64,000 nucleotides of DNA from Dasypus novemcinctus (Eukaryota > Chordata > Mammalia > Cingulata > Dasypodidae), in the NCBI RefSeq assembly GCF_030445035.2, contig NC_080694.1, forward strand, positions 73,795,147-73,859,146, written 5' to 3'. This document shows positions 1-57,424 of the stretch, in pieces. Numbering within the stretch: position 1 is the stretch's first letter; every line of letters starts with the position of its first letter. The notes beneath the pieces were generated by a model. It saw only the letters and a list, made by a program, of their open reading frames with translations. It made no database searches and was not told where the DNA came from. The position numbers were made by a program, and so were the translations under genes.

Positions 1-3000
1 GGCAGCGCCCCCTGCCGGCCAGGTCGAGGGAGCTGGGGGCGGCAGCGCCCCCTGCCGGCCAGGTCGAGGGAGCTGGGGACGGCAGCGCCCCCTGCCGGCC
101 AGGTCGAGGAGCTGGGGACGGCAGCGCCCCCTGCCGGCCAGGTCGAGGAGCTGGGGGACGGCAGCGCCCCCTGCCGGCCAGGTCGAGGGAGCTGGGGGAC
201 GGCAGCGCCCCCTGCCGGCCAGGTCGAGGGAGCTGGGGGACGGCAGCGCCCCCTGCCGGCCAGGTCGAGGGAGCTGGGGACGGCAGCGCCCCCTGCCGGC
301 CAGGTCGAGGGAGCTGGGGACGGCAGCGCCCCCTGCCGGCCAGGTCGAGGAGCTGGGGGACGGCAGCGCCCCCTGCCGGCCAGGTCGAGGGAGCTGGGGG
401 ACGGCAGCGCCCCCTGCCGGCCAGGTCGAGGAGCTGGGGGACGGCAGCGCCCCCTGCCGGCCAGGTCGAGGGAGCTGGGGACGGCAGCGCCCCCTGCCGG
501 CCAGGTCGAGGAGCTGGGGGGGGACAGCAGCGCCCCCTGCTGGCCAGGTCGAGAGCTGGGGACAGCAGCGCCCCCTGCCGGCCAGGTCGAGGAGCTGGGG
601 GCAGCAGCGCCCCCTGCTGGCCAGGTCGAGAGCTGGGGACGGCAGCGCCCCCTGCCGGCCAGGTCGAGGAGCTGGGGGACAGCAGCGCCCCCTGCCGGCC
701 AGGTCGAGGAGCTGGGGGCAGCAGCGCCCCCTGCCGGCCAGGTCGAGGGAGCTGGGGGGCAGCAGCGCCCCCTGTCGGCCAGGTCGAGAGAGCTGGGGAC
801 AGCAGCGCCCCCTGCCGGCCAGGTCGAGGAGCTGGGGGCGGCAGCGCCCCCTGCCGGCCAGGTCGAGGGAGCTGGGGACGGCAGCGCCCCCTGCCGGCCA
901 GGTCGAGGGAGCTGGGGGACAGCAGCGCCCCCTGCCGGCCAGGTCGAGGGAGCTGGGGGGCAGCAGCGCCCCCTGCCGGCCAGGTCGAGGGAGCTGGGGG
1001 GCAGCAGCGCCCCCTGCCGGCCAGGTCGAGGGAGCTGGGGGGCAGCAGCGCCCCCTGCCGGCCAGGTCGAGGGAGCTGGGGGGCAGCAGCGCCCCCTGCC
1101 GGCCAGGTCGAGGAGCTGGGGGCGGCAGCGCCCCCTGCCGGCCAGGTCGAGGGAGCTGGGGACGGCAGCGCCCCCTGCCGGCCAGGTCGAGGGAGCTGGG
1201 GGACAGCAGCGCCCCCTGCCGGCCAGGTCGAGGGAGCTGGGGGCGGCAGCGCCCCCTGCCGGCCAGCTCGAGGGAGCTGGGGGACAGCAGCGCCCCCTGC
1301 TGGCCAGGTCGAGAGCTGGGGAGAGTAGCGCCCCCTGCTGGCCAGGTCGAGGGAGCTGGGGGCAGCAGCGCCCCCTGCCGGCCAGGTCGAGGGAGCTGCA
1401 GGGACAGCAGCGCCCCCTGCCGGCCAGGTCGAGGGAGCTGGGGGCAGCAGCGCCCCCTGCCGGCCAGGTCGAGGGAGCTGGGGACAGCAGCGCCCCCTGC
1501 CGGCCAGGTCGAGGGAGCTGGGGCGGGGGGGGACAGCAGCGCCCCCTGCCGGCCAGGTCGAGGGAGCTGGGGGGCGGCAGCGCCCCCTGCCGGCCAGGTC
1601 GAGGGAGCTGGGGGCGGCAGCGCCCCCTGCCGGCCAGGTCGAGGAGCTGGGGGCGGCAGCGCCCCCTGCCGGCCAGGTCGAGGGAGCTGGGGACGGCAGC
1701 GCCCCCTGCCGGCCAGGTCGAGGGAGCTGGGGGGCAGCAGCGCCCCCTGCCGGCCAGGTCGAGGGAGCTGGGGGGCAGCAGCGCCCCCTGCCGGCCAGGT
1801 CGAGGAGCTGGGGGCAGCAGCGCCCCCTGCCGGCCAGGTCGAGGGAGCTGGGGGGCAGCAGCGCCCCCTGCCGGCCAGGTCGAGGGAGCTGGGGCGGGGG
1901 GGGACAGCAGCGCCCCCTGCCGGCCAGGTCGAGGGAGCTGGGGACGGCAGCGCCCCCTGCCGGCCAGGTCGAGGGAGCTGGGGGCAGCAGCGCCCCCTGC
2001 CGGCCAGGTCGAGGGAGCTGGGGGGCGGCAGCGCCCCCTGCCGGCCAGGTCGAGGAGCTGGGGGCGGCAGCGCCCCCTGCCGGCCAGGTCGAGGGAGCTG
2101 GGGACGGCAGCGCCCCCTGCCGGCCAGGTCGAGGGAGCTGGGGGGCAGCAGCGCCCCCTGCCGGCCAGGTCGAGGGAGCTGGGGGCCAGCAGCGCCCCCT
2201 GCCGGCCAGGTCGAGGAGCTGGGGGCCAGCAGCGCCCCCTGCCGGCCAGGTCGAGGGAGCTGGGGACAGCAGCGCCCCCTGCCGGCCAGGTCGAGGGAGC
2301 TGGGGGCAGCAGCGCCCCCTGCCGGCCAGGTCGAGGGAGCTGGGGGCAGCAGCGCCCCCTGCCGGCCAGGTCGAGGGAGCTGGGGCGGGGGGGGACAGCA
2401 GCGCCCCCTGCCGGCCAGGTCGAGGGAGCTGGGGGGCGGCAGCGCCCCCTGCCGGCCAGGTCGAGGGAGCTGGGGCGGGGGGGGACAGCAGCGCCCCCTG
2501 CCGGCCAGGTCGAGGGAGCTGGGGCGGGGGGGCACAGCAGCGCCCCCTGCCGGCCAGGTCGAGGGAGCTGGGGGGCGGCAGCGCCCCCTGCCGGCCAGGT
2601 CGAGGGAGCTGGGGGCGGCAGCGCCCCCTGCCGGCCAGGTCGAGGAGCTGGGGGCGGCAGCGCCCCCTGCCGGCCAGGTCGAGGGAGCTGGGGACGGCAG
2701 CGCCCCCTGCCGGCCAGGTCGAGGGAGCTGGGGGGCAGCAGCGCCCCCTGCCGGCCAGGTCGAGGGAGCTGGGGGGCAGCAGCGCCCCCTGCCGGCCAGG
2801 TCGAGGAGCTGGGGGCAGCAGCGCCCCCTGCCGGCCAGGTCGAGGGAGCTGGGGGGCAGCAGCGCCCCCTGCCGGCCAGGTCGAGGGAGCTGGGGGCAGC
2901 AGCGCCCCCTGCCGGCCAGGTCGAGGGAGCTGGGGACAGCAGCGCCCCCTGCCGGCCAGGTCGAGGGAGCTGGGGGCAGCAGCGCCCTCTGCCGGCCAGG

Positions 3001-3715
3001 TCGAGGGAGCTGGGGGGCAGCAGCGCCCCCTGCCGGCCAGGTCGAGGGAGCTGGGGACAGCAGCGCCCCCTGCCGGCCAGGTCGAGGAGCTGGGGGGGGA
3101 CAGCAGCGCCCCCTGCTGGCCAGGTCGAGAGCTGGGGACAGCAGCGCCCCCTGCCGGCCAGGTCGAGGAGCTGGGGGCAGCAGCGCCCCCTGCCGGCCAG
3201 GTCGAGGGAGCTGGGGGGCAGCAGCGCCCCCTGCCGGCCAGGTCGAGGGAGCTGCAGGGACAGCAGCGCCCCCTGCCGGCCAGGTCGAGGGAGCTGGGGG
3301 CAGCAGCGCCCCCTGCCGGCCAGGTCGAGGAGCTGGGGGGGGGACAGCAGCGCCCCCTGCCGGCCAGGTCGAGGGAGCTGGGGGCAGCAGCGCCCCCTGC
3401 CGGCCAGGTCGAGGGAGCTGGGGACAGCAGCGCCCCCTGCCGGCCAGGTCGAGGGAGCTGGGGGGGGGGGGGACAGCAGCGCCCCCTGCCGGCCAGGTCG
3501 AGGGAGCTGGGGGGCGGCAGCGCCCCCTGCCGGCCAGGTCGAGGGAGCCGGGGGACAGCAGCGCCCCCTGCGGGCCAGGTCCAGGGAGCTGGGGACAGCA
3601 GCGCCCCCTGCCGGCCAGGTCGAGGGAGCTGGGGTCAGCAGCGCCCCCTGCTGGCCAGGTCGAGGGAGCTGGGGACAGCAGCGCCCCCTGCTGGCCAGGT
3701 GGAGGAGCTGGAGCA
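1..3715 (+). repeat. ~40-bp minisatellite, about 90 units, derived from a TRIM15-like coiled-coil exon; each unit carries a CTCF-like motif
   Basis: Head-to-tail units of about 38-48 bp, most often 39-41, run from the left edge and so begin outside the window. The unit reads CAGCGCCCCCTGCCGGCCAG then GTCGAGGGAGCTGGGGACGG. Units differ mainly in the length of the G-run and in GACGG versus GACAG or GGCAG. Read as codons it gives QQRPLLARSREL, close to the recalled TRIM15 stretch QQRCLLLARLRELEQ, and the last units run directly into the rest of that exon. The reverse strand contains CCGGCAGGGGGCGCTG, which fits the CTCF core consensus CCRSYAGRKGGCRSY at every position. A few units, including the last two, have CCAGCAG instead. 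There are three CpGs per unit. Unit length is usually not a multiple of three, so the array is not a coding repeat. CTCF binding is inferred, not shown. Confidence 0.95.
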
Positions 3716-3827
3716 GGTCCTGCAGGAGCGCGAGGACTAAGCCCAGAAGGCCCCTGAGGAAGTCACGGCTTGGGGTCTCGACAAGGAGCTGGAGAAGCGT
3801 CGGCCGCCAGCACACGAGCCCCTAAAA
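3640..3827 (+). pseudogene. TRIM15: TRIM15-like coiled-coil exon remnant (the 231-nt exon class)
   Basis: After the last minisatellite units the sequence continues as LARxRELEQVLQERED, a stop, then AQKAPEEVTAWGLDKELEK and RRPPAHEPLK. This matches the recalled TRIM15 order RELEQQIWKERDEY, KVSEEVTRLGAQVKELEEK, CQQPASELLQ. The match ends at a GTGAGC donor after 3827, as expected for the end of the 231-nt TRIM coiled-coil exon. An in-frame TAG-type stop replaces the Glu-Tyr region and one base is lost where the array joins, so it is broken. The coiled coil would mediate TRIM dimerisation. Upstream RING and B-box exons would lie beyond the left edge. No B30.2 exon was recognised downstream. TRIM10 is a less likely parent. 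Confidence 0.7.
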
Positions 3828-6424: not shown

Positions 6425-6802
6425 GTTTTTTTTTTTGATTTGTTTTTATTTATTTAATTCCCCTCCCCTCCCCCGGTTGTCTGTTTTCTGTGTCTTTTTT
6501 TTTTTGCTGCGTCTTGTTTCTTTGTCCGCTTCTGTGTTGTCAGTGGCACTGGAAGTGTGTGTGGCGCCATTCCTCAGCAGGCTGCTCCCTCCTTAGCGCT
6601 GGGCGGCTCTCCTTACGGGCGCACTCCTTGTGCGTGGGGCTCCCCTACGCGGGGGACACCCCTGTGTGGCACGGCACTCCTTGCACGCATCAGCACTGCG
6701 CATGGGCCAGCTCCACACGGGTCAAGGAGGCCCGGGTCTTGAACCGCGGACCTCCCATGTGGTAGACGGACGCCCTAACCACTGGGCCAAAGTCCGTTTC
6801 CC
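6425..6802 (-). mobile_element. DAS-type tRNA-derived SINE (armadillo family)
   Basis: The element is inverted: a T-rich tail at 6425-6470, a body with CAGCACTGCGCATGGGCCAG, then the tRNA-related head. Its box B shows as TTGAACCGCGGACC and its start as CTGGGCCAAAGTCCG at 6785-6800. The same body recurs at 43.5, 53.7 and 58.4 kb. Confidence 0.85.
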
Positions 6803-15151: not shown

Positions 15152-15834
15152 TCATGGCTGCAGCAGCAGGAGTGTCCCCAGCCACCTGAGCCACAGGAAG
15201 GGGACCAGGCGCTGCGTGAAGGCGGCCGAGAAGGTGTAGAGCAGCTCCTGCGACTCCGCGTTGGTGAACGTCACGTGCCGCCCTCGTGGTCCAGCGCCAC
15301 GCCCACCCTCCAAGGCCGCAGTGCCAGGAAGAGCTCAGCCTCAAGGCAGGTGTGGGCCCAGACGCCCGCGGGGGACAGTGGCAGGGCCCACACCCTGTCC
15401 CCGGCTCCAGGGGGAGCTCCCCCTTCCTCTCCATGGAGTCCCTGGCCACGCCCACCAGGCAGCGCCCCACCGCCCCGCCCCCTCCCTGCCACCCACCCCC
15501 TCGTCCTCCCCCAGCGAGTCCTTGTCCTCGTCCTCGTCCTCGGTGGTTTCGCACCCGTCATAACCATCACCGTAGCCCACCTAGTCGTCCTCCTCCTCCT
15601 CCCCCTCCCCCTCCCCCTCCTCCTCGCCGTCCCCCTCCCCATCCCAGGACCCGCCCCCTCTGCACCTCCTCCTCCACTAGCCCCTGCCCCAGGTGACGCC
15701 CTTGCTGCCAGCGCCCCGGGCTCGCAGGTGAACTGTTGGGGGAGGTGGGCCCGCGGCGCAGGCTGCTGCACGACACGCGCTTCCAGTCCTGCGACAGCAG
15801 CAGGTGGCCGCTGGCCGACTGCGGGTCCAGGGTG
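15152..15834 (-). pseudogene. TRIM26: TRIM26-like last exon (acidic tract and B30.2/PRY-SPRY)
   Basis: It opens [20 protein letters not shown], passes a Glu/Gly-rich low-complexity stretch (TRIM26 has a long Glu/Asp linker here), [21 protein letters not shown] and [19 protein letters not shown], and ends [20 protein letters not shown], then [11 protein letters not shown], then a TGA at 15152-15154. At least four frame changes separate these blocks. The dinucleotide before the exon is TG where the family has an AG acceptor, so normal splicing into it looks lost. Confidence 0.9.
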
Positions 15835-16173
15835 ACGCTCACAGCGGGACAGGGAGGGGCGTGTCAGCGGGCGGGCGGGGTCCCCAGCCCTGGGATGTGC
15901 CCGCGCAGGCCTGGGGGCCGGGGGCGGAGCGGGGCTGCGGCGGGGCTGGCCGGGCCCTCGGGGCGCTGCTGGCTGGACGCTGGCGCCAAGGGCCAGGCGC
16001 TGAGCTGGGGAAGCCCAGGGAGGTCCGTGAGGCCAGGACAGGCGAACGGGGGGAGCAGAGCCTCGACCAGACTCCAGACAGGAGCTGCCGGGCGCGCCAG
16101 GGCTCGGGCTTGGGGAGCTCTGGGGGCGCAGGGGCAGCCGCTGTCCTCACCAGCGCCGACCCTGGGCACTCAC

Positions 16174-16206
16174 CTGTTGTATACTCCAGGTCCCTCAGCA
16201 GCTTCC
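16174..16206 (-). pseudogene. TRIM26: TRIM26-like 33-nt exon
   Basis: The acceptor is CCCCGCAG and the donor GTGAGT. It encodes [11 protein letters not shown] (TRIM26 [11 protein letters not shown]). Intact. Confidence 0.9.
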
Positions 16207-16372
16207 CTGCGGGGAGAAGAAAGGATGCGGTGAACCCCAGGCCAGCATGTGTGCCGCCTTCCCTGAGCAGAGGCGGATATCCTGGAAAGGCCCATCCCCA
16301 GACGCCCAGGAGAGAACCGCCAGGCCCAGGAGCCAAGCCCGACTCCGACGCCCGCCGGGCCCTCCCCATTAC

Positions 16373-16488
16373 CTTGGAATTCTCTCAGGCCTTGCTGCAG
16401 GGAGAGGAGTTTATCCGAGAGTTCTCTAGTCCTTTTCTTAACCACCGGAGCAATGGGCTTCCCGATCCAGACCTTCTTCCGGGGATAC
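16373..16488 (-). pseudogene. TRIM26: TRIM26-like 116-nt exon
   Basis: The acceptor is CCATCAG and the donor GTAATG. The full-length open translation [20 protein letters not shown] then [18 protein letters not shown] matches TRIM26 [38 protein letters not shown]. It is the best-preserved exon, with no break. Confidence 0.93.
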
Positions 16489-16835
16489 CTGATGGGACGG
16501 CAGCCCAAGAACCCACTTCCCTCCTCTTCCTCAGGACAGCTGAGGGGGCAGGGCGGGCATGACCCCCCACTTCAGAGGGAAAGCGGGGCTTGGAGACCAC
16601 GTGAAGTGCCCAAAGCAGGGGTCAAGCCATCAGAGCGCTTCCGTCTGCACCACGTCCCGCCCTGTCCACCCCCAAGGCGCTTAGTGGCCAGGAGCTGGGC
16701 TTGGAGACCTTGCTCGGGTGCAGAGCAGGTCTCCAGCTCCCCAAGGATGTGCTCCTGCTCCCCAGGAGGGAGGGTCCCCGGATGGGCCCTGGGTGAGGGT
16801 CCTCTAGAGCCCTTATCACTGCCCTGTCGATTCAA

Positions 16836-18075
16836 ACGGACCATGGAGAGGAGGGGAGGGGGCTCAGGGTGGAGGGTCAAGTGGACCATGGAGAGGAGGG
16901 GAGGGGCTCAGTGTGGACGGTCAAGTGGGCCATGGAGAGGAGGGGAGGGGCTCAGTGTGGAGGGTCAAGGGGACCATGGACAGGAGGGGAGGGGGCTCAG
17001 TGTGGAGGGTCAAGGGGACCATGGACAGGAGGGGAGGGGGCTCAGTGTGGAGGGTCAAGGGGACCATGGACAGGAGGGGAGGGGCTCAGTGTGGAGGGTC
17101 AAGTGGACCATGGAGAGGAGGGGAGGGGCTCAGTGTGGAGGGTCAAGTGGACCATGGAGAGGAGGGGAGGGGGCTCAGTGTGGAGGGTCAAGTGGGCCAT
17201 GGAGAGGAGGGGAGGGGCTCAGTGTGGAGGGTCAAGGGGACCATGGAGAGGAGGGGAGGGGGCTCAGTGTGGAGGGTCAAGTGGACCATGGAGAGGAGGG
17301 GAGGGGGCTCAGTGTGGAGGGTCAAGTGGACCATGGAGAGGAGGGGAGGGGGCTCAGTGTGGAGGGTCAAGTGGACCATGGAGAGGAGGAGAGGGGCTCA
17401 GGGTGGAGGGTCAAGTGGACCATGGAGAGGAGGGGAGGGGCTCAGTGTGGAGGGTCAAGTGGACCATGGAGAGGAGGGGAGGGGGCTCAGTGTGGAGGGT
17501 CAAGTGGACCATGGAGAGGAGGGGAGGGGGCTCAGTGTGGAGGGTCAAGTGGACCATGGAGAGGAGGGGAGGGGCTCAGGTTGGAGGGTCAAGTGGACCA
17601 TGGAGAGGAGGGGAGGGGCTCAGTGTGGAGGGTCAAGTGGACCATGGAGAGGAGGGGAGGGGCTCAGTGTGGAGGGTCAAGTGGACCATGGAGAGGAGGG
17701 GAGGGGGCTCAGTGTGGAGGGTCAAGTGGACCATGGAGAGGAGGGGAGGGGGCTCAGGGTGGAGGGTCAAGTGGACCATGGAGAGGAGGAGAGGGGCTCA
17801 GGGTGGAGGGTCAAGTGGACCATGGAGAGGAGGGGAGGGGGCTCAGTGTGGAGGGTCCAGGGGACCATGGAGAGGAGGGGAGGGGGCTCAGTGTGGAGGG
17901 TCAAGGGGACCATGGAGAGGAGGGGAGGGGCTCAGTGTGGAGGGTCAAGTGGACCATGGAGAGGAGGGGAGGGGCTCAGGTTGGAGGGTCAAGTGGACCA
18001 TGGAGAGGAGGGGAGGGGCTCAGGTTGGAGGGTTCAGTGGACCATGGAGAGGAGGGGAGGGGGCTCACTAGGGAG
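16836..18075. repeat. 44-45-bp G-rich minisatellite, about 28 units, in a TRIM26-like intron
   Basis: The unit is GTCAAGTGGACCATGGAGAG followed by GAGGGGAGGGGCTCAGTGTG and GAGG, with an optional extra G. Variants include GGACCATGGACAGG and GTGGGCCATGG. All long open frames across it (up to 559 codons) arise because the unit lacks stops. It sits between the 23-nt and 116-nt exons and accounts for most of that 1.6-kb intron. G-runs on the + strand give G-quadruplex potential. Confidence 0.95.
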
Positions 18076-18087
18076 GAAGCTCCTCAC

Positions 18088-18110
18088 CTGCTTAGGAAGT
18101 CCCTGGTGTC
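18088..18110 (-). pseudogene. TRIM26: TRIM26-like 23-nt exon
   Basis: GACACCAGGGACTTCCTAAG plus CAG, read DTRDFLSR across the junction, versus DTRDFLNR in TRIM26. It is flanked by CTTCCAG and GTGAGG. Intact. Confidence 0.9.
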
Positions 18111-19309
18111 CTGGAAGGAAAGCACAAGATAAGGTGAGTGACTGGGCACCTCACGTGTCCCTAGTGCTGCCCTAGAGGCTGGAACACATCCCTGGAAAAG
18201 ACAAACGTGGTCTCTTCACAGGAGCTGAGATTCTAGTGGGGGCAGCGGATCAAAAGAAGAACAAAAAACAAAACAAAACAAAATAATCGCAGTCTGAAGC
18301 AAACAGGGAGGGGAGAGAACGACAGCAGTGACCCCTGGAGACACGTGTACTGAGTAGTGACGGAAGAGGAGGCGTGGGCTGGTGACGTGGGCAGGGGCGG
18401 GGCAGGGAAGGCAGGGCCGACGGCGCTCAGGAGGGAGGATTTCATTTTACGTGGAGTGGGAGGTCAGCGAGGGGCTCAGGGCATGTAGGCGTGTTTTACG
18501 GTGTGAAGACGGCCAGCCCCAGGACCCCCTTCCCCTCGGTGACAGAACGGGGGTTACAGGTGCAGGCGGCCCCCCACCCAGAAGCTATACTCCTGATTTC
18601 CTGGCAACTGGGTCTGGTCATGTGACCCAGTCCCGCCAATGGAAAGGGATGGAGAAGGAAGCAGCGATCGTCACGTTGGGGTCACGTCCTTTAAAATGGG
18701 AACTGCCCTCGACTTCCCCTCTGGGCCTCCTGCTGCTCCGTGGGGGGCTGACCGGCCAGTCCTGACTGCGGGTCTGAACCCACAAGGTGGGAAAAAGGCG
18801 GAGCCCACCCCGGCGCGACCCTGCACTGCCCGGTCCTCCGTGCCCTGCCCCTGGCTGCGGACTGCCGGGACAGCGTTTTCAGGAGCATCCGGGGGTTCTG
18901 CTGCTGAGACAGGCCCGAGACCCCCACGCAGGCGGGCACTGCCCACCCCGACCCAGGAGGCAGGACAAACACGCCCTGTCCCAAGGTGGCCGAGCCCTAC
19001 TCAGGCTGTAGCTGCTCCGGGAGGCTGCAGTGTCTGTCTTCTGTCTGTAGAACGTCTCCGCCTCCAGGGAGCCCTCCCAGAGGGCCCTACCTCTCTCCAA
19101 CTGGTTTCTCCAGTGGTATTTCCAGGATCACCCATCTCTGCTCCCTCCCCAGTTACCCGTCCTCTCCTGACCCTCCCAGCGCTTGGGAGAAGCCGCGGTG
19201 CAGCCCTCTGGCATCTCAAGACCTCAGAAACCTTCACTAGAGAGGCACCTGCAGGGACCCAGAGGGGCTAGTGGTGGGGTGAGGATGGTGATGAAGTCAG
19301 CACCCCCCC

Positions 19310-19465
19310 CCCATCTCTACGGCACTTGTTCATTTCTAAGTGTTTCCTGAGACAGGGGGTCAAGCCACCCTGGCAGGTACCCATTTATGCCCACTTGATC
19401 CTTAACAGGTGGGGAGGGTCACAGGTGACACCCCGTGTCCAGATGAGAAAACGGAGGCCTCAAGC
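19310..19465 (+). repeat. MIR-like SINE remnant
   Basis: It resembles the MIR core and end: ggcaggtacccatttatgcc, then ccagatgagaaaacggaggc. Old and partial. Confidence 0.4.
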
Positions 19466-19497
19466 GCATGCCGGGTGGCCCGTGGGGACCCGCTGAC

Positions 19498-19733
19498 CTG
19501 CAGGAGCTGTGCGGGGGCTGCTGGGCCTTGTCCTCCAGCTGGAGATGACCACGGCCAGGCTGAGAGCTCGCCGGCTGCCCTGGCCAGGCCCTTCCCCTGG
19601 CCCTCCACGAGCTCCTGCTCCAGCCTCGCCAGCTGCTCCAGCAGGTGCTGCTCCCGCTCCCTCAGGACCTGGTGGCCCTGCTCGAGGGCGGCCAATGTCC
19701 TGCCTCTGCTCCTGGAGCTTCTTCTGCAGGGCG
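19498..19733 (-). pseudogene. TRIM26: TRIM26-like exon 3 (coiled coil)
   Basis: The acceptor is CGCCCTGCAG and the donor GTCAGC. It encodes KLQEQRQDI, then after a shift [20 protein letters not shown] and RLEQELVEG, close to TRIM26 FEQGHQFLREREEHLLEQLA. Further shifts follow in the end part (LALVISELEGKAQQPAAELMQ in the family). At 236 nt it is slightly longer than the usual 231. This is the exon class from which the minisatellite at 1-3715 arose in the TRIM15-like gene. Confidence 0.92.
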
Positions 19734-20820
19734 GGAGGGGGGAGGGGGGAGCCCCCCAAGGCTGAGCCCCTCCAGGCCCCCGCGCGGGTGAGGCTGCCTC
19801 TTCCTGAGTCGGGGGTTTCAGGGAGCCCCTGGTCCCCTTCTCTCCTCCCGGCTGCTGTGCCATCAGGACCTGATCCCGCAGGCTGCTCAGCTCAGGGCTC
19901 TGGCCACGGAAGCCCGGGCTCTCTGCTGAGCCAGCCAGAGGGCGGGGCTCACGCCTGAGCCGCACACGCTTTCCTCCCTGGGAGGCTGGCCTGCGCGTCC
20001 CTGCTCGGGGACCACGCCCTCCCCTGCCCCGGAGCCCCTGCCCGGTCCAGGCTGCCCTCCGCCAGTCCTCAGACCCTGCCGCAGGCCGCTGTGGCCTGGA
20101 GGTGGCCCTGAACGTGGCTGACCCTGCCTCGCTCTCCCTTTGGAGACTGACTCTCCGCCCGGCTGGCCCCCATCCCTCTACTGCCCCCTCCCCACACACA
20201 CACAGACGCCCCTCGAGGCTGGAACCTCCGACCTCCCCACCAGCTCTGAGCAAGCAGGAGCCAGGCTGCCTTAGTTCTGTTACTTGAGCCCTAGGGCCTG
20301 GCCCCAGCGGACCCTGCAGGGCGCCAGGAGCTGGGGGCCTTGGAGCCTTCCCGCTCTCCCCGCAGGTTCTCAGCCTGCAGCCAGCGCCTTCCTTCCGAGC
20401 CCGCGGCTTCTCGCCACAATCAGGGATCATGCCCTGCCCCACTTAACCTTTAATTTTATCACCTCCGTTTGGAGAAGAAGGAAGCAAAGCCCACAATTCC
20501 TTCCCTCTTAGCTCTCCCTGGGAAAACAGGAGCGAAGGTGGAAGTCAGAGAAGGAAACTTTCATCCAGGAAACCACGCCCTTGTCGGCGGAGAACAGCTC
20601 AGGCTGCAGGGCCTGCACCAAGGCGGCCCCTCCAGCCCCGCTCGGCTCCGGAGCGCCTCCCAGACGCTGCCCCGATCCCGGGCTCATGAGCCCCTCCGCA
20701 CTGCCCGCGGGAAGCGCCTCCACGCTGCAGTCCCTGGCTCATGCGCTCCCCCCTGCCTGCCCCCGTCCCTGGCTCTGGGGCTCCTGCGCCCCTCCGCTGG
20801 GCCTCCCCAACCTCACTTAC

Positions 20821-20915
20821 CAGCGCCCCCAGGATGCTGGGGTCTCCTTTCGCCTGGAAGCCCTGACTTTGTCCCTGTCTCTCCTTAGTGCACTGAGGTG
20901 GTTCAGGATTTTCTC
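20821..20915 (-). pseudogene. TRIM26: TRIM26-like exon 2 (96-nt class, 95 nt here)
   Basis: The acceptor is TCTTTCCACAG and the donor GTAAGT. It encodes [16 protein letters not shown], loses one base, then [14 protein letters not shown] in the next frame. The one-base loss accounts for 95 rather than 96 nt. Confidence 0.92.
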
Positions 20916-21012
20916 CTGTGGAAAGACACAAGCAGCGAGTCGGTGGGTGCTCTGGACGGGGATAGACGCCTTGGGGGGCAGGGCTGAGCCCCGCAGGACG
21001 GGGAGGGCTCAC

Positions 21013-21443
21013 CCTGTGCGGTGGGCGGCCTTGTCCACCAGGACGGCCGTGGGCGGCCGGTGCTTCCACGACTCCCGGCACAGGACGCAGAGCAGCTGGC
21101 CGTCGTCCTCGCAGAAGCAGTGCAGCTTCTCCCGGCGCCTGCGCACAGCTTCGCGTCCTGCTGCTCCTGGACGGCCTCTCCCGGCCGCCGGCTCTTGTCC
21201 ACCTCAGCCGCTCGATGTTCCCCACCAGGCTGGCCAGCTGCCACACGGGCCGGACGTTCTCCTTAAAGGGCTTCTTGCAAAGCGGGCAGACGGGGCGGTT
21301 CCCCGCCGCGGGGCAGATGTCGGAGGCGCAGCCACAGCAGAATACATGGCCTCAGTCGATGTCATGTGGTCCCACAGGTAATTGAGGCAGATGGAGCAGG
21401 TCACCTCCTCCTCCAGGCTCCGCAGGGGGGCTGATGCGGCCAT
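21013..21443 (-). pseudogene. TRIM26: TRIM26-like exon 1 (RING and B-box)
   Basis: ATG is at 21443-21441. RING residues CSIC are present. Then a base is missing after the Asp-His-Met codons, and the cysteine of the family's IDCGHVFC is a TGA. After the shift the other frame reads [20 protein letters not shown] and [11 protein letters not shown], then another shift leads to [17 protein letters not shown] and the B-box [19 protein letters not shown]. The exon ends at GCACAGG before a GTGAGC donor. Without the RING cysteine and frame it could not act as a ubiquitin ligase. Confidence 0.92.
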
Positions 21444-22239: not shown

Positions 22240-22500
22240 CCCCAAGGAGGTGCCCAGAGGACTTAGGGAGCATGAGGCTCAGCACCCAAAGGACTCAGGG
22301 AGCACAGGGCTCAGCACCCAGGGGACTCGGGGAGCACAGGGCTCAGCGCCCAGAGGACTTAGGGAGCACAGGGCTCAGCGCCCAGAGGAATAAGGGACCA
22401 TGGGGCTCAGCTCCAAGAGGACTGAGGGAGCACAGAGCTCAGCTCTGAGAGGATTTACGGAGCACGGGGCTCAGTGCTGAGAGGACCTGCTCCTGTTTAC
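22240..22500 (+). repeat. ~32-bp tandem repeat, about eight units
   Basis: The unit is CTCAGCGCCCAGAGGACTTA then GGGAGCACAGGG, with drift at both ends (AGCACCCAAAGG, AGCTCTGAGAGG). The unit lacks stops, so short open frames here are artefacts. A MIR-like remnant follows at about 22560-22740. Confidence 0.85.
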
Positions 22501-25539: not shown

Positions 25540-27330
25540 AATGAACCAGGTTAACCACAGCCGCTTCGCTCCAAGGAGAAAACAGGTGAGAGTTCACCCG
25601 CGGGCCATGGCCCGCACAGTCAGAGGGCGCCCGCCACGCAGCAGCCCCGGGGCGCCCCAGCGCACGCAGCCCACGCCCCCACGCCCACGCGCAGACCCCC
25701 TGCCCGCCGGGGCCCCGCTGCCACCAGCCGCGTCCTCCTCTAGTGTAACAGGGCACCAGGAGGCCTGGTCCAGCCTTCCGCCTCCTCGGCACAGAGCGGA
25801 GGTGGAGCGAGTCCATCTTACCTTTTCCTCTTTGTCTCCAGGAGCCTCTGGTGACTGGACAATGGGGGCAGGTCCCTCTGAGCCCGCCGGGACCGTCGCG
25901 GTGGCAGACGGAGAGTGTCCAGTGTCCAGGGGACTTGAGGCCGCTCCTGGACGGCCCATCGCCTTAAGCTGCAGAAGCAGCGGGTGCCGAGGGCTGCCGG
26001 GGTGCAGGGGCTCATGCTGCCCGCTGGCCGGTCGGGGAGGGCGCGAGGGGCAGGTCTGCTGGCTCTGCCGGATGGCAGTGGTCAGCGGGAGGTCGGCCTG
26101 CACCCACCGCTCCTGGAGGCCGCTGAGCTCCGTCCTGCTCTTGACCAGGCCAGCTGGGCCTCGGCTCCTTCCCGGGGTCCTCCTGGAGGTCCAGCTGGGC
26201 CTCGGCTCCTTCACGGGGTCCTCCTGGAGGTCTAGCTGGGCCTCGGCTCCTTCACGGGGTCCTCCTGGAGGTCCAGCTGGGCCTCGGCTCCTTCACGGGG
26301 TCCTCCTGGAGGTCCAGCTGGGCCTCAGCTCCTTCACGGGGTCCTCCTGGAGGTCCAGCTGGGCCTCAGCTCCTTCACGGGGTCCTCCTGGAGGTCCGGC
26401 TGGGCCTCGGCTCCTTCCTGTGGTCCTCCTGGAGGTCCAGCTGGGCCCTGGCTCCTTCACGGGGTCCTCCTGGAGGTCCAGCTGGGCCTCGGCTCCCTCA
26501 CGGGGTCCTCCTGGAGGTCCAGCTGGGCCTCGGCTCCTTCGCGGGGTCCTCCTGGAGGTCCAGCTGGGCCTCGGCTCCTTCGCGGGGTCCTCCTGGAGGT
26601 CCAGCTGGGAGCGCAGCCGTGGGGAGGTCCGTGGCTCCGTTGGCTGGCACTGCAGCGCCCACTTCTCCGGCTCCAGCAGGTCCTCAGCCAGCACCTTGAC
26701 CGCGGCCTCACTCTCCCGGGGCTGCTCTGGTTGCGGATGGATGCGGAGCTGCCCCGCACTCTCCAGGTGCGCACAGCTGCTGGCCGGGCTCACCAGGTCT
26801 GTCCTCCGGCCTTCGAGCCTTCCCCGGCGATCGTGGCCCGTGAAGCTTCTCGGGCCCTGGCTGGCTCCTCTCCTTCGGGGTGGCGGGACCCTGAGCTCAG
26901 GGCCGAGAGCGCCTCGGGGGACTTGCCGCCCGCGACTGCTCTTGTCTTTCCTCAACACCTTCACCTGCCGGGAAGGTGGATTCCTGCTGGGCCTGACTCT
27001 TCCTCCCGCAGCAGCGCGGGCTGGCCGCGGGCACCGTCCACTGGAATGGGGACCCCAGCGCGGAGCCGATCCTGGGGTCCCGCCGCCTCCTCCCACAGCC
27101 CGTGGGCGGCGGCTCGCCCTGCGCCGGGAGCTGGCGGAGGCGCTCCTGGAGCCCGAGTGGGCCGCCCGCTTGCCGCGTGCCAGGGGGCGGTCACAGCCCC
27201 CAGGACGGCCGCCGCCTCGGGGCGCAGCCGAGCGCGGGGCTCAGGGCGGGACCAGGCTCTCAGCGCCGCAGGACGCCGGCAGTCCACGCAGCGAGGAATG
27301 TCGCCGTGGAGGCTCCCACGCGGGAACGAC
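25540..27330 (-). pseudogene. Degenerate coiled-coil-like sequence of unknown source, with an internal minisatellite
   Basis: On the - strand 26640-26780 reads AAVKVLAEDLLEPEKWALQC and 26600 RSQLDLQEDPAKE. After the minisatellite, 26090-26150 reads LVKSRTELSGLQERWVQADL. Charged and leucine-spaced residues suggest a coiled-coil protein, but prolines and shifts break the pattern and no parent was recognised. The whole block is GC- and CpG-rich. An open + strand frame of 629 codons over the same block has no family match and is probably a shadow. Confidence 0.35.
26150..26615. repeat. 41-bp minisatellite, about 11 units, from coiled-coil-like sequence
   Basis: The unit on the + strand is GGGGTCCTCCTGGAGGTCCA followed by GCTGGGCCTCGGCTCCTTCA and C. 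Starts at 26174, 26215 and 26256 give an exact 41-bp step. On the - strand it reads AEAQLDLQEDPVKE, then changes frame in the next unit because 41 is not a multiple of three. It therefore looks like expansion of a former coding segment, as with the array at 1-3715. Confidence 0.9.
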
Positions 27331-27439: not shown

Positions 27440-28800
27440 AAGAGAGAACAAAACAGGACTATAATAGCTCTTTGAGGAGATAATGGGCTAATATGTAAAA
27501 GTGCTTCATCACTTTAGTGAAAATATGGCACCAACTAAGGGTTTATTATACTGCTGAGAATAAAGTCCAGCTGGGAGCTCCAATGTATTCAAACAGGTGA
27601 CTTTAAGAGGCATAAAGGGTGTGAAAAGAACGTTAACGTACAAAGCCTGGACTGAAATACCTCAGTGGAAAAGTGCGCTGACTCGCGCCATCTGCTGGCG
27701 CCTCTGGAAACTGCATGGGCAAAAACTGCGCTCTCTGTGTCCAACCCCTGGGAGAAAAATCTGCACCCCATTGGTGAGTCTCTGGCCCGATTTTGAAAAC
27801 TTAAGCTGGGCAGTTTTAAACACTGAGGATAAGTTGAACCAAATATCAAAGAAGAGCTATGGTTTTGTGTGACCTATGTATCTTTAAAAAAAAGAATAAA
27901 AAATTAAAAGGAAAAAAAAAAAAAAGAGCTGTGGGGTAAAAAATAAGCAAGAGAGAGAAATTAGCCATCAGAGTACATACACCAACATATTCAGATGCCT
28001 AGACATCAACAAAAAATTGCAAGCTATGCTAGAAAACAAGAAGAGATGGCCCAGAGAGAACAAACCAAATATCCTAAAGAGATATTGGAGTTAATACAAT
28101 TAATCAGTGATAATCTCACAGCTCTCCTAAATCATTTCAAAGAATTTAAAGAAAATATGACTACAGAAATGAAGGATATTAAGAAGACACTGGGAGAGCA
28201 TAAAGAACAATTTGAAAGCCTGCAAAGAAAAGGAACAAACCTTATGGGAATGAAAGCCATGATGGATAAGATTGAAAATGCATTAGAGGCACATAAGAGC
28301 AGATGTGAATTGCTTGAAGACAAAATAAGTGATTTCAAGGACAGAACATCTGAACTGCAAAAGACAAGAAAACAGAATGGAAAAAATAGAACGGAGTCTT
28401 AGGGAACTGAGTGACAATGCAAAACACACAGATATTTGCATTATCAGTGTCCCAGAAGGAGAAGAGAATGGAAAATAGGCAGAAAGAATATATAAGGAAA
28501 TAATGACTGAGAACTTCCCAACCCTTATGAAGGACATAAATATCAATATCCAAGGACAGTGCAGCCCAAACAGAATGAATCTCAATAGATCTACCCCCAA
28601 GACAGCTACTATTCAGAATGATGAATATCAGAGATAAAGAGAGGATTCTGAAAGCAGCAAAAGAAAAGCATCACATGCAAATCCCCTATACATTTGATGT
28701 AACTTTTCTGTAATCTAAAAACTCTTTGAAAATAGTTTTTAAAAAAAAATCCACCCCCAAAAAAATCACATACAAGGGAAACTCAATAAGATTATGTGCC
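27440..28800 (+). mobile_element. L1 5' region and partial ORF1
   Basis: 27995-28399 is an open frame of 135 codons with the coiled-coil character of L1 ORF1p: QKIASYARKQEEMAQREQTK, LGEHKEQFESLQRKG, NALEAHKSRCELLEDKISDF. It breaks, and further ORF1-like sequence follows in other frames to about 28690 (IISVPEGEE; then NFPTLMKDINI). Before it, 27550-27990 would be the 5' UTR, with the CTCF-like site at 27685. No ORF2 follows directly. Confidence 0.7.
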
Positions 28801-31964: not shown

Positions 31965-32796
31965 TGGTTGTTCTTGATTTAAAGACTAAACAGAAGCAAA
32001 AGAACTAATAGATAAATGGGACTTCCTCAAAATTAAAGCCTTCTGCACCTCAAAGGAGTTTGTCAAGAAAGTAAAAAGGGAGCCCACACAGTGGGAGAAA
32101 ATATTTGGCAATCATATATCTGATAAGAAACTTATAACTTGCATTTATAAAGAACTCCTACATCTTGAAAATAAAAAGATAAACAACCCATTTAAAAAAT
32201 GGGAAAAAGACTTAAACAGATACTTCTCCGAAGAAGAAATACAAATGGCAAGAAAGCACATGAAAAAATGTTCCAAATCTCTAGCTATCAGGGAAATGCA
32301 AATCAAAACTACAATGAGATACCATCTTACACCCATAAGATTGGCAGCTATGAAAAAAACAGAAGAATACAAGTGCTGGAGAGGATGTGAAGGAAGGGGA
32401 ACACTCATCCACTGCTGGTGGGAATGCAGAAGGATCCAACCATTCTGGAGGACAGTATGGCGGTTTCTCAAAAAACTAACCACAGATTTGCCATATGACC
32501 CAGCAATACCACTGCACCCAGCAGAACTGAAAACAAGGACACAAACCGATATATGTACACCAATGTTCATAGCAGCATTGTTCACTATCGCCAAAAGTTG
32601 GAATCAACCCAAATGCCCATCAACAGATGAGTGGATCAATAAAATGTGGTATATACACACAATGGAATACTACTCGGCTGTAAGAACAAACACACTACAA
32701 ACACATGTGATAACATGGATGAATCTTGAGAACCTTATGTTGAGTGAAGCAACCCAGACATTGAAGGACAAATACTACATGACCTCAATGATATGA
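31965..32796 (+). mobile_element. L1 ORF2 C-terminal region
   Basis: It translates, with a few breaks, to the L1 ORF2p C-terminal part: KWDFLKIKAFCTSKEFVKKV, QWEKIFGNHISDKKLI, HMKKCSKSLAIREMQIKTTM, RYHLTPIRL, GTLIHCWWECRRIQPFWRTV, MFIAALFTIAKSWNQPKCP, MWYIHTMEYYSAV. It ends at TGA 32794-32796. This includes the cysteine-rich region (CWRGC, HCWWEC). 32245-32796 is uninterrupted. The EN and RT domains are absent: a 5'-truncated copy. Confidence 0.92.
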
Positions 32797-36375: not shown

Positions 36376-36867
36376 CTCCCATGCTCAGGTCAAGTGTTAA
36401 GATGCAGGCTGCAGCCCCTCGAGGGAGAAAGTCAAGAAGCCTTTCCCTGCTCGGCCCTGGACAGCCCAGTCTTCTCCCAGCTCTTTTCCCACCACTGCCC
36501 GCCTTGACCCCACAGCCAAACCCAACCCTCTCCCGGCCTACAGAGAGCCACGCGCTTTCGGCCTGAGAACTCTGAAAACGCTGTTCCTCTGCCGAAAACA
36601 CCCTTCCTGTCCTGCTCAGCAAACTCCTTTCCAGCTGGAGGTCTCAGCTGAAAGCCCCTCGCTCTGCAGGTCTTCCCTGAGCTGTTGGGCTGAGTCCTGT
36701 GGAGACACCCCAGGGTGCACGGGGACTTCTCTGCAATTGTAACGTGCCTGCGTAATTACTCTTTAACATTGCTGCCCCCACTGGACAAGGAGTTCACAGG
36801 CCGAGTCCAGCTGACCCCAGCATCAAGCCCGGTGCTGCCAGAGCAGACAGTCAACTGCACAAGGAGC

Positions 36868-36950
36868 AGCTGTAGCTCAGTGGTTGAGTGCCTGCCTCGC
36901 ATGTATGAAGTCCAGGGTTCAATCCCCAGCACCACCTAAAAATAATAACA
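36868..36950 (+). mobile_element. tRNA-like (ID-type) SINE
   Basis: Box A region tgtagctcagtggttgagtg, a CCTGCCTCGCATGTATGAAG loop region and box B GGTTCAATCCC, then an A-rich tail. It resembles tRNA-Ala, but the cloverleaf is not intact, so it is not a tRNA gene. Confidence 0.8.
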
Positions 36951-39589: not shown

Positions 39590-41600
39590 CCCGAGTACAA
39601 GTGGCCAAACCGGTTTAATCTGGGAAAAAAAAGTTGGGGAGGAGGGGAGTGAAGTGGAGGGAAGGAGCCTGGCTCGAGCACCTATTCAGGGCCATCGGGC
39701 ACCCCGCTCCCGCACCCCGGCCCTGCTGGCTTCTGCTGTCAGCGAGGAAGGGCTTGGGGGTGGGGAATGGGGGGCACCACGGCGCAGGTGGGGAGGACGC
39801 GGGACGCCGCGCGGGGGGGTGCATGGGGGTCGGGGTCCAGGCGGGGGGAGGCGCACAGCCCGGTGAGCCCCGCGAGCCCCGCCGCCCGACCCCGGCGCTG
39901 TGCGAGGCTGTGGCCCCGCCGCGTTCCCCGCCGCTCGCTCCCCAGTCGCCGCTAGCCCCGCGCGGGGTCCGTGCGTCCGCGAAGCGCTCTGCTCGGCTCT
40001 CCGCCCTTGGAGCGCAGCCTCCGCTCACGCGGACCCCGGCGAGATCTCTCCCCGGACAGCCCCGGGATTGGCCGCCGCCGACTCCCCCGCCACTGGAACC
40101 CGCGCCCGGTACTTCACGGGTCACCGGCGAATCCCCAGGCCGCGGAGGGGCGGGGGCGCCAGCCGAGCTCGCGCGGGGTGGGGGCTGGTTTGCCTGTGCC
40201 GAGGACTGGGCGGCCGCTGATGTGGGCTATGGGTGGGAGGCTTTGTCTCTTCAGAGATAACCTAGACTATCTGTGGCTTGTGAGTGTGGGATGATAAAGG
40301 CTGCAGTCCTGCCCTTGGTGAGCTGGAAACAGGTTAACAATGCAAGGTCTATAAACTTTAAGTATTCAGGGGAAATGCAAACCAAATGTGCTAAAAGCTT
40401 ATGGAATGCCTGAGGTCCATGCTAAAAGCTTACCTAAGATGTGGAAATATATGCTAATTCAAGCCTATTGAGAACTGAAACAAAGGAACCATTTGGCTTT
40501 TCCTCTCTGTATAAAAGGGACTAAAAAATCTTGTTCGAGTTCGGGGTTGAAACAGAAAGCTGAGTCTGGCCGGCTGTCAATAAACCATTTTTCCTTCTTA
40601 AAATCATTCCTGAGTCCTGGCCTCTCTGTACGCAAATAATTGAACCTCTCTCAAATTCTACAACACCGCAGCCGGGGTCCGCGCGCCGGCTGTGGGTGCA
40701 GGCGCCCCCTCCCCCGCCCTGGACGCCGCCCAGGGTGCTCAGATGGGCGCCCCCAGCGCAGCCTCCGTCCGCTTCCTGGGCCAGGCGGGGCCCTACGGGC
40801 GGGTCCCGGCGCCAGAGAGAAAGTTGGTGGCGTCGGGGCGCCCCCCGGGAGGGGCCTTGCGGGAGGCGCCGGGAGCCCAGTCGGCTGGACTGGCCCTGCG
40901 GCGGGAGGGGGCGGAGGGGCCGCAGCCTGGCTGCTCCGCTCCCGGCGCCGAGCTCGGAAACGGCAGGGCCTGCCCCGCGGTGGCCCCTGTGCGCCCTCCA
41001 CCGCGTGCGGCCTGGGCGGGGCCTGCCCCCCGCGCGGAAACCCCGGTCGCCGCCTCTGCTTGGGGGTCTCCAGATCAGGAGGGTGGGCTGGAGACGAGGT
41101 GGGCGCTGGTGGCGCTCAGGGATCTGATCCGTCCCGCGCCCCCGCCCCCGCCGCCTGCGCGGTCCGCGCCTGGGTTGCAGGGGTGGGGGCGTCTTCCTGC
41201 CAGGGTGTGTTCCAGGCCCGAAATCCTGGGACCTGCCCGCCTCCCTTCCCCCACAGGGGCCGAGAGAATGCGGAGGGCGCTCGGGGTCCTTGCTGGTGGG
41301 CGCTCAGAAGCCCGGGCCCCCCGCGGCCTCCCCCGGCCTCGCCTGCCGCTGCCCCGCGCGCCTCCTGCGGCCCCCGCCGCCTCGGGCCGCCCCTCACCGC
41401 CCACGGGCAGGGCCTGGGCTCGGGGTGGTCTCCGCGGGGTCAGCCCTGCGGACCTCCCTCCCCGTGCCTACAGGTGGTCGCCGCCTCCGGCCACAGCTCC
41501 TCGTTCTCCAACTTAAAGCCCCCAAGTCTTCCCTGCACGCGAGGACGGCGCCGGAGGCCTGGGGCACAGGCCACGGTGGACGGGCTCTCACGGGCCCAGC
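39590..41600. promoter_or_regulatory. CpG island, split by a solo LTR at 40218-40665
   Basis: CpG-dense from about 39590 to 40217 and 40666 to 41600. A GATTGGCC CCAAT-type box lies at about 40065 and there are many GGGCGG-type boxes. Long frames on both strands (up to 376 codons) have no recognised family, as usual in CpG islands. It is a candidate promoter of an unidentified gene. No exon with donor and coding match was recognised. Confidence 0.45.
40218..40665 (+). mobile_element. Solo LTR fossil, ERV1-type
   Basis: TGATGTGGGCTATGGGTGGG start, CTGTATAAAAGG box at about 40507, CAATAAACC signal at about 40578, CTACAACA end. Perfect CCGC target duplication at 40214-40217 and 40666-40669. Confidence 0.9.
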
Positions 41601-43479: not shown

Positions 43480-43900
43480 CATGAGAAGCAGACTTGGTCT
43501 GGTGGTTAGGACATCCATCTACCACATGGGAGGTCCGCGGTTCAAACCCTGGGCCTCCTTGATCCGTGTGGAGCTGGCCTATGCGCAGTGCTGATGCACG
43601 CAAGGAGTGCCATGCGACGCAGGGGGGTCCCCGCATAGGGGAGCCCCACGCGCAAGGAGTGCGCCCTGTAAGGAGAGCTGCCCAGTGCGAAAGAAAGTGC
43701 AGCCTGCTCAGGAATGGCACCGCACACATGGAGAGCTGACACAACAAGATGATGCAATAAAAAGAAACACAGATTCCCGTGCCACTGACAACAACAGAAG
43801 CAGACAAAGAAGAACATGCAGCAAATAGACACAGAGAACAGACAATTGGGGGAAAGGGGGAAGGGGAGAGAAATAAATAAAAATAAATCTTCAAAAAAAA
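43480..43900 (+). mobile_element. DAS-type SINE
   Basis: The head reads gagaagcagacttggtctgg tggttaggac, with box B GGTTCAAACCC at 43540-43550, body cagtgctgatgcacgcaagg and an A-rich tail aaataaataaaaataaat. It is the fullest copy in the window. Confidence 0.92.
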
Positions 43901-49199: not shown

Positions 49200-49566
49200 C
49201 TACAATTTTTTTTCTTCTCCCTTCCCCTCCTCCCACTCTCCCATTTTGCTATCTGTGGTGTCTTCTCTTCTCATTTTCTCTCCTTTAGGATTCACTGGGA
49301 TTTGATCCTGAAGACCTCTGATGTGGAGAGGTTCCCTGTCAATTGTGCCACCTCAGCTCCTGGTTTCTGTTGCACAGCACCTTGACTCTCCTCTTGTCTC
49401 TCTTTTGATGCCTCATCAACTTGCTGCATGACTCACTTGCACAGGCACTGGCTCACTATGTGGGCACACTTTCTCTTCTTTTTCACCAGGAGGCCCCAGG
49501 GATCAAACCCAGGTCCTCCCATATAATAGGGAGAAGCCTTAACACTTGAGCCACATCCGCTTCCCT
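49200..49566 (-). mobile_element. DAS-type SINE, inverted
   Basis: T-rich start and tctcttctttttcaccagga body. The head ends with box B as GGGATCAAACCC at 49499 and gagccacatccgcttccc. Confidence 0.8.
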
Positions 49567-49769
49567 TGAGAAAACTCTTTAGAAAATATAATAAGGGTTA
49601 CTGGTTTTAGGTGTTTGATGGGGGCATCTGGCACAGGGTGTACATGAGGCAGACCAACAGGTCTTTTGACATACCATGTCCATCTGAGATACTTCTTATC
49701 CCCTCCAATCCTATTCCCACTATACATTTTTAAAATCTCTGTTCAAGTATCTATTCCAGGGAAACCTCT

Positions 49770-52424: not shown

Positions 52425-52898
52425 TGATGTGGGCTATGGATGGAAGTCTCTTTGTCTCTTCAGAGATAACTAAGTTGTTTGATTTGTGGGTGTGGAACGG
52501 TAAGAGGCTGCAGTCCTGCCCTTAGGGACTGGCAGCGGCTCCAGTCCCAGGAAATGTTTAACAATGCAAGGGCTATAAACTTTAAGTATTTAGGGGAAAT
52601 GCAAAAACCAAATATGCTAAAGGCTTATCTAGAATGTCTGGAGTCCATGCTAAAAGCTTACCTAAGATGTGGAAGATATATGCTAATTGAAGCCTATTGA
52701 GAACTGAAACAAAGGGACCATTTGGCCTTTCCTCTCTGTATAAAAGACGTTTGAAAATCTTGTTCAGGGCTCGGGATTCAAACTGAAAGCTCCCGAGTCC
52801 AGCCGGCCGTCAATAAACCATTTTTCCTTCTCAAAATCATTCCTGAGTCCTGGCCTCTCTATACTCAAATAATTGAACTTCTCTTAAATTCCACAACA
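52425..52898 (+). mobile_element. Solo LTR fossil, ERV1-type
   Basis: TGATGTGGGCTATGGATGG start, CTGTATAAAAGACG at 52736, CAATAAACC at 52811, CACAACA end. Perfect ACAG target duplication at 52421-52424 and 52899-52902. Confidence 0.9.
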
Positions 52899-52902
52899 AC
52901 AG

Positions 52903-53105
52903 AGCATGGGCTCCCATCCTCTGCCACTTTCTGCATGACCTGAGAGGTTTGCTCAAGCTCTGCATGCCACTGGTTCTCTCTCTGCAAAATGAGCCAATAA
53001 TTATATCAACCTCATAGAACCGTTGGGAGGATTAAATGAGATAGTACATGTAAAGCCCTTGAAACAGTGGAAAAGTATCCATTAGGCCAGGGCATGTGAT
53101 ATGAT
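52903..53105 (+). mobile_element. MIR SINE
   Basis: It reads cctctgccactttctgcatg, ctctctgcaaaatgagccaa, acctcatagaaccgttggga and ggattaaatgagatagtaca, tracking the MIR consensus in order. Confidence 0.8.
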
Positions 53106-53725: not shown

Positions 53726-53729
53726 TTTT

Positions 53730-54142
53730 TTTTTTAGATTTTATTTTATTTATTTTATTTCTCTCCCCTTCCCCCCCACCCTGGTTGTCTGTTCTCTGTG
53801 TCCATTTGCTGCATCTTCTTTGTCCACTTCTGTTGTTGTCAGTGGCACGGGAATCTGTGTTTTTTTCTTTTGTTGTGTCATCTTGTTGTGTCAGCTCCTC
53901 CTGTGTGTGGCAACATTCCTGGGCAGGCTGCACTTTCTTTCGTGCTGGGAGGCTCTCCTTATGGGGTGCACTCCTTGCCATGGGGCTCCTCTGCACTGGG
54001 ACACCCTGTGTGGCAGGGCACACCTTGCGCACATCAGCACTGCGCATGGGCCAGCTCCACACGGGTCAAGGAGGCCCAGGGTTTGAACTGTGGACCTCCC
54101 ATGTGGTAGACAGTCACCCTAACCACTGGGCCAAGTCTGCTA
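53730..54142 (-). mobile_element. DAS-type SINE, inverted
   Basis: T-rich tail at 53729-53760, gttgttgtcagtggcacggg, gcactgcgcatgggccagct, box B as GTTTGAACTG and the head actgggccaagtctgc at 54125. Confidence 0.9.
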
Positions 54143-56894: not shown

Positions 56895-57313
56895 TTCTGA
56901 AAGATTGATTGATCGATTGATTGCTTTCCTACCTTCCCCTCCTCCCGCCCTGCTGTTTTTGCTGTCTATGTTGTCTTCTCTTCTCATTTCCTCTCCTCTA
57001 GGATTCACTAGAATTTGATCCTGGGGGCCTCTGATGTGGAGAGAGGTTTCCTGTCAATTGTGCCTCCTCAGTTCCTGGTCTCTGCTGTGCTTCACCTTGA
57101 CTCTCCCCTTGTCTCTCTTATGATGCGTCATCATTTTGCTGCGGGACTCACTTGTGGGGGACACTGGCTCCCCATGCAGGCACTCGCATGGGCACTGGCT
57201 TGCTGCATGGGCACGCTTTCTCTTCTTCTTCACCAGGAGTCCCCAGGGATCAAACCTGAATCTTCCCCTATGGCAAGTGGAAGCTCTATCACTTGAACCA
57301 CTTCCACTTCCCT
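56895..57313 (-). mobile_element. DAS-type SINE, inverted
   Basis: (TTGA)n tail at 56905-56922, tgttgtcttctcttctcatt, gcatgggcactggcttgctg, box B as GGGATCAAACCTG at 57245 and the end accacttccacttccc. Same subfamily as 49.2 kb. Confidence 0.8.
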
Positions 57314-57424
57314 TAAAAGCCTGTTTATTTCATTTTCAGCACAACAGTACAAAGGCATCTATATAATGATTTAGTAATTATAATTATTTGTTAATTCTTC
57401 ATCCTCAGTTACCATGGAAAACTG

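Follow-up and report, generated by a model that had tools for sequence, protein, structure and literature searches.

The left end of a 64,000-nucleotide stretch of DNA from the armadillo Dasypus novemcinctus (NC_080694.1, positions 73,795,147 to 73,859,146; hereafter the window) is occupied by a minisatellite in which every unit carries a sequence resembling the CTCF binding motif, and which derives from a coiled-coil exon of TRIM15. On sequence grounds we consider the chance somewhat better than even that this minisatellite arose from an exon, is able to bind CTCF and is gated by methylation. A preliminary description, made from the DNA letters alone, had already noted the array and its likeness to CTCF sites. 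It was accurate in its coordinates to within a few bases, and the observation is confirmed more strongly in two respects: high scores are reached by all units, and in most of them two CpGs lie within the motif.

Tandem Repeats Finder (TRF) delimits the array as window positions 2-3711 (period 40, 90.9 copies, 92% matches); it crosses the left window edge, and the unit counts given here cover its in-window part. Scores were obtained with a CTCF matrix after JASPAR MA0139.1, the maximum of which is 26.1 bits. All 91 units score between 18.3 and 25.5 bits, all with the motif on the minus strand, so that the single orientation reported earlier is borne out and the low scores proposed as an argument against a CTCF match were not found. 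The motif TGGCCGGCAGGGGGCGCTG is present in 81 units (21.3 bits each) and TGGCCAGCAGGGGGCGCTG in six (24.9 bits each); one unit is identical to TGGCCAGCAGGGGGCGCTG but for a final A (25.5 bits), and the remaining three score 18.3, 19.0 and 20.6 bits. The exact 16-mer CCGGCAGGGGGCGCTG, which had been assigned to every unit, is found 81 times within 1-3715, always on the minus strand, and nowhere else in the window; in the other ten units the 19-mer differs by one or two bases and still scores 18.3-25.5 bits. First-order Markov sequences modelled on the array (n = 200) contain a mean of 3.1 matches of at least 11 bits and 0.5 of at least 15 bits, with best scores averaging 14.8 bits. Outside the array there is a single match of at least 15 bits in the window (27683-27701, 17.6 bits), which lies on the minus strand as do those of the array, and the three other minisatellites of the window (Table 1) contain no match of 11.5 bits or more.

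Start-to-start spacing of the units ranges from 38 to 49 bp (mean 40.8), with gaps of 19-30 bp between neighbouring motifs. Motif length is constant in all 91 units, which have six motif forms, whilst the 90 linkers have 29 forms and vary from 19 to 30 bp. There are 33 unit sequence types, the more diverged units being located at the single-copy right edge of the array. Units 39-46 are identical to units 63-70 over eight units, compared with at most five when unit order is shuffled (1000 shuffles), which suggests that later growth of the array went by block copying, homogenising the units. A G-quadruplex pattern has six start positions on the plus strand and none on the minus strand. The ZFP57 hexamer TGCCGC, considered as a sign of an imprinting-like element, occurs 14 times on the minus strand of the array.

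As the preliminary description had it, the right end of the array runs into a TRIM15-like coiled-coil exon; this exon is broken, and its best match is anteater TRIM15. The array is traced to this exon; TRIM10 and TRIM26, considered as alternative sources, were rejected. In xenarthran TRIM15 the relevant segment reads RELGEQQRLLLATLREL (sloth) or RELGEQQHLLLARLKEL (anteater), in which two REL-like stretches are offset by 14 residues (two heptads, or 42 bp). This spacing is ungapped in all 65 TRIM15 proteins aligned; these include marsupial proteins, in which the repeat is less exact. In one frame the array unit reads QQRPLLARSRELG, that is, from REL to the next REL. The unit carries the G found after the first REL, and the single-copy edge carries the E found after the second (ELEQ), as would be expected from unequal exchange or slippage between the two REL stretches.

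We sampled synonymous DNA using an approximate codon table and counted scores of at least 13 bits as matches. Averaged over 149 sloth TRIM15 windows, with 150 samples for each, the chance of a match is 0.3%; the array segment is covered by the three highest-ranking windows and by four of the highest six, at 3-7%. Among the windows sampled, those around QRLLLA encode a CTCF match most easily. With 4000 samples the sloth, anteater, baboon and consensus segments give 4.5-6.6%, and changing the first leucine to proline, as in the array, raises this to 17.6%, with a best coding of 24.9 bits, the state of the exon-edge units. For the sloth peptide the best coding sampled scores 21.6 bits, and for the anteater peptide 18.2. 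These results support a TRIM15 segment predisposed to encode a CTCF match, and with it the earlier proposal that coding sequence happened to match the motif. Birth of the array from such an exon also predicts that TRIM15 exons of other mammals may harbour latent CTCF-like sites; in sloth and anteater, no more than a single site, scoring below the array-edge motif, is predicted.

The array contains 302 CpGs in 3711 bp, or 3.3 per unit, in line with the three per unit, at least one of them within the motif, described previously. Motif position 12 is a CpG in 91/91 units. The core position C2 is CG in 83/91, TG in seven (units 14, 16, 33, 34, 77, 90 and 91) and GG in one, so that most units have two CpGs within the motif. 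Methylation at C2 impairs CTCF binding, whilst methylation at position 12 is tolerated (PMC6222495). The exon-adjacent units 90 and 91 carry TGCTGG, in which CTG encodes leucine as in TRIM15. Homology to the exon suggests that these edge units are ancestral; if so, the majority unit has acquired its C2 CpG at a cost of 3.5 bits, and a strong site lacking this CpG seems to have given way in the array to a weaker, methylation-sensitive one. The five TGCTGG units further inside may represent old variants or CpG decay. Of the 182 CpG copies that lie at motif position 12 or in the linker, none has changed to TpG or CpA, where about 11 would be expected under an assumed tenfold CpG rate, with the caveat that array copies are not independent; this weakly favours a young or germline-unmethylated array.

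We infer the following path for the array. In a lineage with a broken TRIM15, unequal exchange or replication slippage between the REL heptad stretches would have multiplied the intervening segment, of which the coding strand is CAGCGCCCCCTGCTGGCCA and the reverse strand a near-ideal CTCF motif. Block copying would then have homogenised the array, and the majority unit would have acquired its CpG at core C2. On an unmethylated array, CTCF is predicted to bind some or many of the units, at a pitch of ~41 bp and with a single polarity, and in male germ cells the paralogue CTCFL/BORIS may bind array units; methylation of C2 would switch the whole array off as a block. By the convergent rule for CTCF motif orientation, minus-strand motifs, if bound, would stall cohesin approaching from the left, where TRIM10 lies beyond the window edge, and favour leftward contacts. 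A more far-reaching version is distinctly unlikely in our estimation: that the coiled-coil exon, once TRIM15 was broken, gave rise to a very dense one-directional CTCF array, its heptads supplying both recombination substrate and motif, and that this array, bound in addition by CTCFL as a distinct state of male germ cells, acts as a methylation-gated, copy-number-variable boundary between the TRIM cluster and the kappa block of the major histocompatibility complex (MHC) class I region.

Tandem repeats with CTCF motifs are a known class. In human, 171 repeats, simple tandem repeats for the most part, are co-bound by CTCF and CTCFL in a staggered manner, although co-binding of a single repeat is unprovable according to the authors (PMC5007689). 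In these human variable number tandem repeats (VNTRs), as in the armadillo array with its 91/91 units, each tandem unit has a CTCF-type sequence, giving clustered sites on a window scale of ~40 nt; they were found by chromatin immunoprecipitation in K562 and, in the part of that report available, are not traced to an exon, whereas the present array is known from its sequence and traced to TRIM15. The SVA VNTR has GC- and CpG-rich units like those of the array, and its in vitro binding of CTCF/CTCFL is lost on full CpG methylation; however, SVA is a retrotransposon, and its two tested motifs are weak (MEME p 7.95e-06 and 1.32e-05; PMC5007689) compared with p 3e-08 for the array, calculated with the matrix used here. 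Motif pairs 10-100 bp apart, a range that includes the 19-30 bp gaps observed here, have been analysed as doubly occupied; such 2xCTS sites have same-strand motifs at short spacing, as in the array, but comprise two or a few motifs rather than 91 (PMC4562119). DXZ4/Dxz4 is likewise a tandem, methylation-dependent CTCF bank with one site per unit, the orientation of which sets contact direction in mouse (PMC5899087, PMC6985041). The array shares the single-orientation bank (91/91) but has 41-bp units adjoining TRIM15/TRIM26 remnants beside MHC-type TRIM genes, in contrast to the 3-kb units of the X-linked locus (10-100 copies in human, 14 in mouse).

Other comparisons are more distant. The CTCF-site reiterations of alphaherpesviruses are short tandem repeats of variable copy number, but are viral and have few copies and other units (PMC3192842). 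The SPANX-N minisatellite, with 39-bp units and 4-7 copies in human, grew at a coding exon, but CTCF is described as bound at the promoter, not the repeat, in the portion of the paper available (PMC1831492). KRTAP5-6, a lead for tandem CTCF sites, has no such array described in the available part of its source (PMC8282625). By analogy with the CTCF/CTCFL-bound VNTRs, paired sites, tandem insulators and the orientation effect at Dxz4, binding of the array by CTCF in some unmethylated tissue is more likely than not. In searches of an open-licence library, from which most subscription journals are missing, none of the titles or abstract openings retrieved names a TRIM15-derived or armadillo CTCF array. 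The earlier suggestion of a new route to an insulator thus holds in part: the class is known, whilst the traced, exon-born and heptad-templated route, and the density, are new as far as these searches tell.

Several observations weigh against an exon-born array able to bind CTCF. The exon remnant has weak tblastn E-values (0.03 for human, 0.018 for Tamandua), is absent from tblastn matches of sloth TRIM15 at E ≤ 5, and is not reported by a profile of 65 TRIM15 proteins at E ≤ 10. In addition, a 41-bp pitch may provide insufficient room for CTCF on every unit. Further such points agree with a rather unlikely alternative, namely that GC-rich exon debris of a dead gene grew by unequal exchange into a methylated, unbound array whose CTCF match is coincidental. 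An equally good match in a 41-bp unit is expected by chance among tandem repeats about 0.6 times per genome (uniform composition) or about 6 times (80% GC), based on 228,486 curated human tandem repeats (PMC8096271). Motif bases are also no more constrained than comparable linker bases: deviations from the majority base number 11/1729 in the motif and 4/1092 at 12 comparable linker positions (p = 0.43), or 4/1638 in the motif when the TGCTGG state is left out (p = 0.72), in a count that excluded linker G-runs and all indels. By this count the substitution rates are equal and no constraint on the motif was found; the greater variety of linker forms we tentatively ascribe to slippage of the G-runs. 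The 3.5-bit deficit of the majority unit relative to the exon-edge motif points in the same direction, and the presence of three other GC-rich minisatellites without CTCF motifs suggests that the region produces such arrays anyway. A coincidental match on a methylated array is, however, less easily reconciled with the lack of CpG decay at position 12 and in the linker (subject to the assumed rate and non-independent copies noted above), or with a motif length that never changes whilst linker length does.

A second alternative is that selection has kept the array to separate the TRIM cluster from the kappa block of MHC class I, in the manner of a one-directional insulator, as the super-boundary of the preliminary description would imply. 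This is unsupported, and improbable as judged from the evidence in hand. The uniform orientation and high scores, the absence of motif indels despite linker length variation, and the location next to TRIM26, which marks the edge of the kappa block (PMC4753418), are each consistent with it, as are reports that tandem CTCF sites are directional insulators (PMC7087399) and that the direction of contacts depends on how the Dxz4 bank is oriented (PMC5899087). Nonetheless, orientation and indel absence follow from tandem copying alone, motif and comparable linker positions vary equally, and the apparently derived majority motif is weaker than the edge motif. Selection for CTCF binding or a boundary role is not indicated by the sequence.

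We regard it as very unlikely that the array was mis-sized, or built from the reads of a shorter repeat, during assembly. Long GC-rich repeats are often mis-assembled, and the window begins inside the array; against this, the 33 unit types, the diverged right-edge units and the duplicated eight-unit block resemble real repeat evolution. The chance that the array encodes part of a living TRIM15-like protein is negligible: of the three plus-strand frames, two run open across 1-3711 and the remaining one is interrupted only at 1326, and exonic minisatellites that stay coding exist, such as SPANX-N (PMC1831492), but unit length is divisible by three in only 13/90 cases, and we reject the coding reading because the other 77 break the frame, in addition to which a stop interrupts the reading frame of the exon remnant, and neither tblastn nor the profile revealed a TRIM15 PRY/SPRY on the plus strand.

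The birth of the array can be read at an MHC class I framework position: the exon yielded a heptad-templated minisatellite, and this in turn an array of CTCF motifs. If bound, the array would titrate both CTCF-site number and C2 methylation naturally at a single locus, bearing on the number of sites per boundary and on whether neighbouring CTCF molecules can be accommodated at a 41-bp pitch. An unbound array would be a clean warning that 91 near-perfect motifs are not enough for an insulator.

Table 1. Features of the window, with positions counted from its first nucleotide
Feature	Position	Strand	Remarks
Minisatellite	1..3711	- (motif strand)	91 units of 38-49 bp, one CTCF-like 19-mer each
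Motif of last unit (91), exon edge	3679..3697	-	TGGCCAGCAGGGGGCGCTG, 24.9 bits, C2 without CpG
TRIM15 coiled-coil exon remnant	3693..3827	+	in-frame stop; then directly AAAGTGAGC, donor-like site read from sequence
TRIM26 pieces (pseudogene)	15155..21443	-	frame changes, stops; convergent neighbour
Further minisatellites	16838-18067; 22252-22486; 26150-26609		TRF

The convergent, minus-strand TRIM26 identifies the locus as the TRIM15/TRIM26 interval. The gene order TRIM15(+)/TRIM26(-) is conserved and matches that in bat (PMC4753418), which supports the MHC-type TRIM neighbourhood proposed in the preliminary description. Neither tblastn nor the profile of 65 proteins detected a plus-strand TRIM15 PRY/SPRY domain, the better profile matches all lying in the TRIM26 region, and an intact downstream TRIM15 in the window was likewise sought with both and not found. 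Amongst nine open reading frames (ORFs) compared with Pfam there is one match above cut-off, a PRY domain at 15570-15863 on the minus strand, in the TRIM26 region. The remnant is not a functional TRIM15, given its in-frame stop and lack of PRY/SPRY; a RING and B-box would lie to the left of the window. Loss of TRIM15 is not unusual, since the dog has a TRIM15 pseudogene and the mouse and rat genes contain premature stops (PMC2533329). TRIM26 is broken at this locus too, although the human protein shares 95-96% identity with that of sloth or anteater; the pieces represent either a lost gene or a decayed duplicate, and a second intact copy of TRIM15 or TRIM26 may exist elsewhere in the genome.

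With respect to the further minisatellites, that at 16838-18067 has 27.6 copies of a 44-45 bp unit and lies among the TRIM26 pieces (between 16490 and 19498), and that at 26150-26609 has 11.2 copies of a 41-bp unit without indels, within a GC-rich stretch (25-27 kb). Related copies of a short interspersed nuclear element (SINE)-like sequence are present in both orientations at 6652-6790, 43487-43767, 53729-54141 and 58650-58772; they resemble the xenarthran DAS SINE, as would suit an armadillo. Plus-strand ORFs at 27965-28402 and 31990-32796, the latter without a Pfam family, resemble pieces of ORF1 and ORF2 of long interspersed nuclear element 1 (LINE-1). Two sets of direct repeats, 78-90% alike (40447-40677 and 52676-52910, ~12.2 kb apart; 49244-49567 and 56957-57314, ~7.7 kb apart), reflect either local duplications or an unlisted interspersed repeat. 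A tRNA-family match on the plus strand at 36866-36937 (32.2 bits, Rfam cut-off 29) may be a tRNA-derived repeat.
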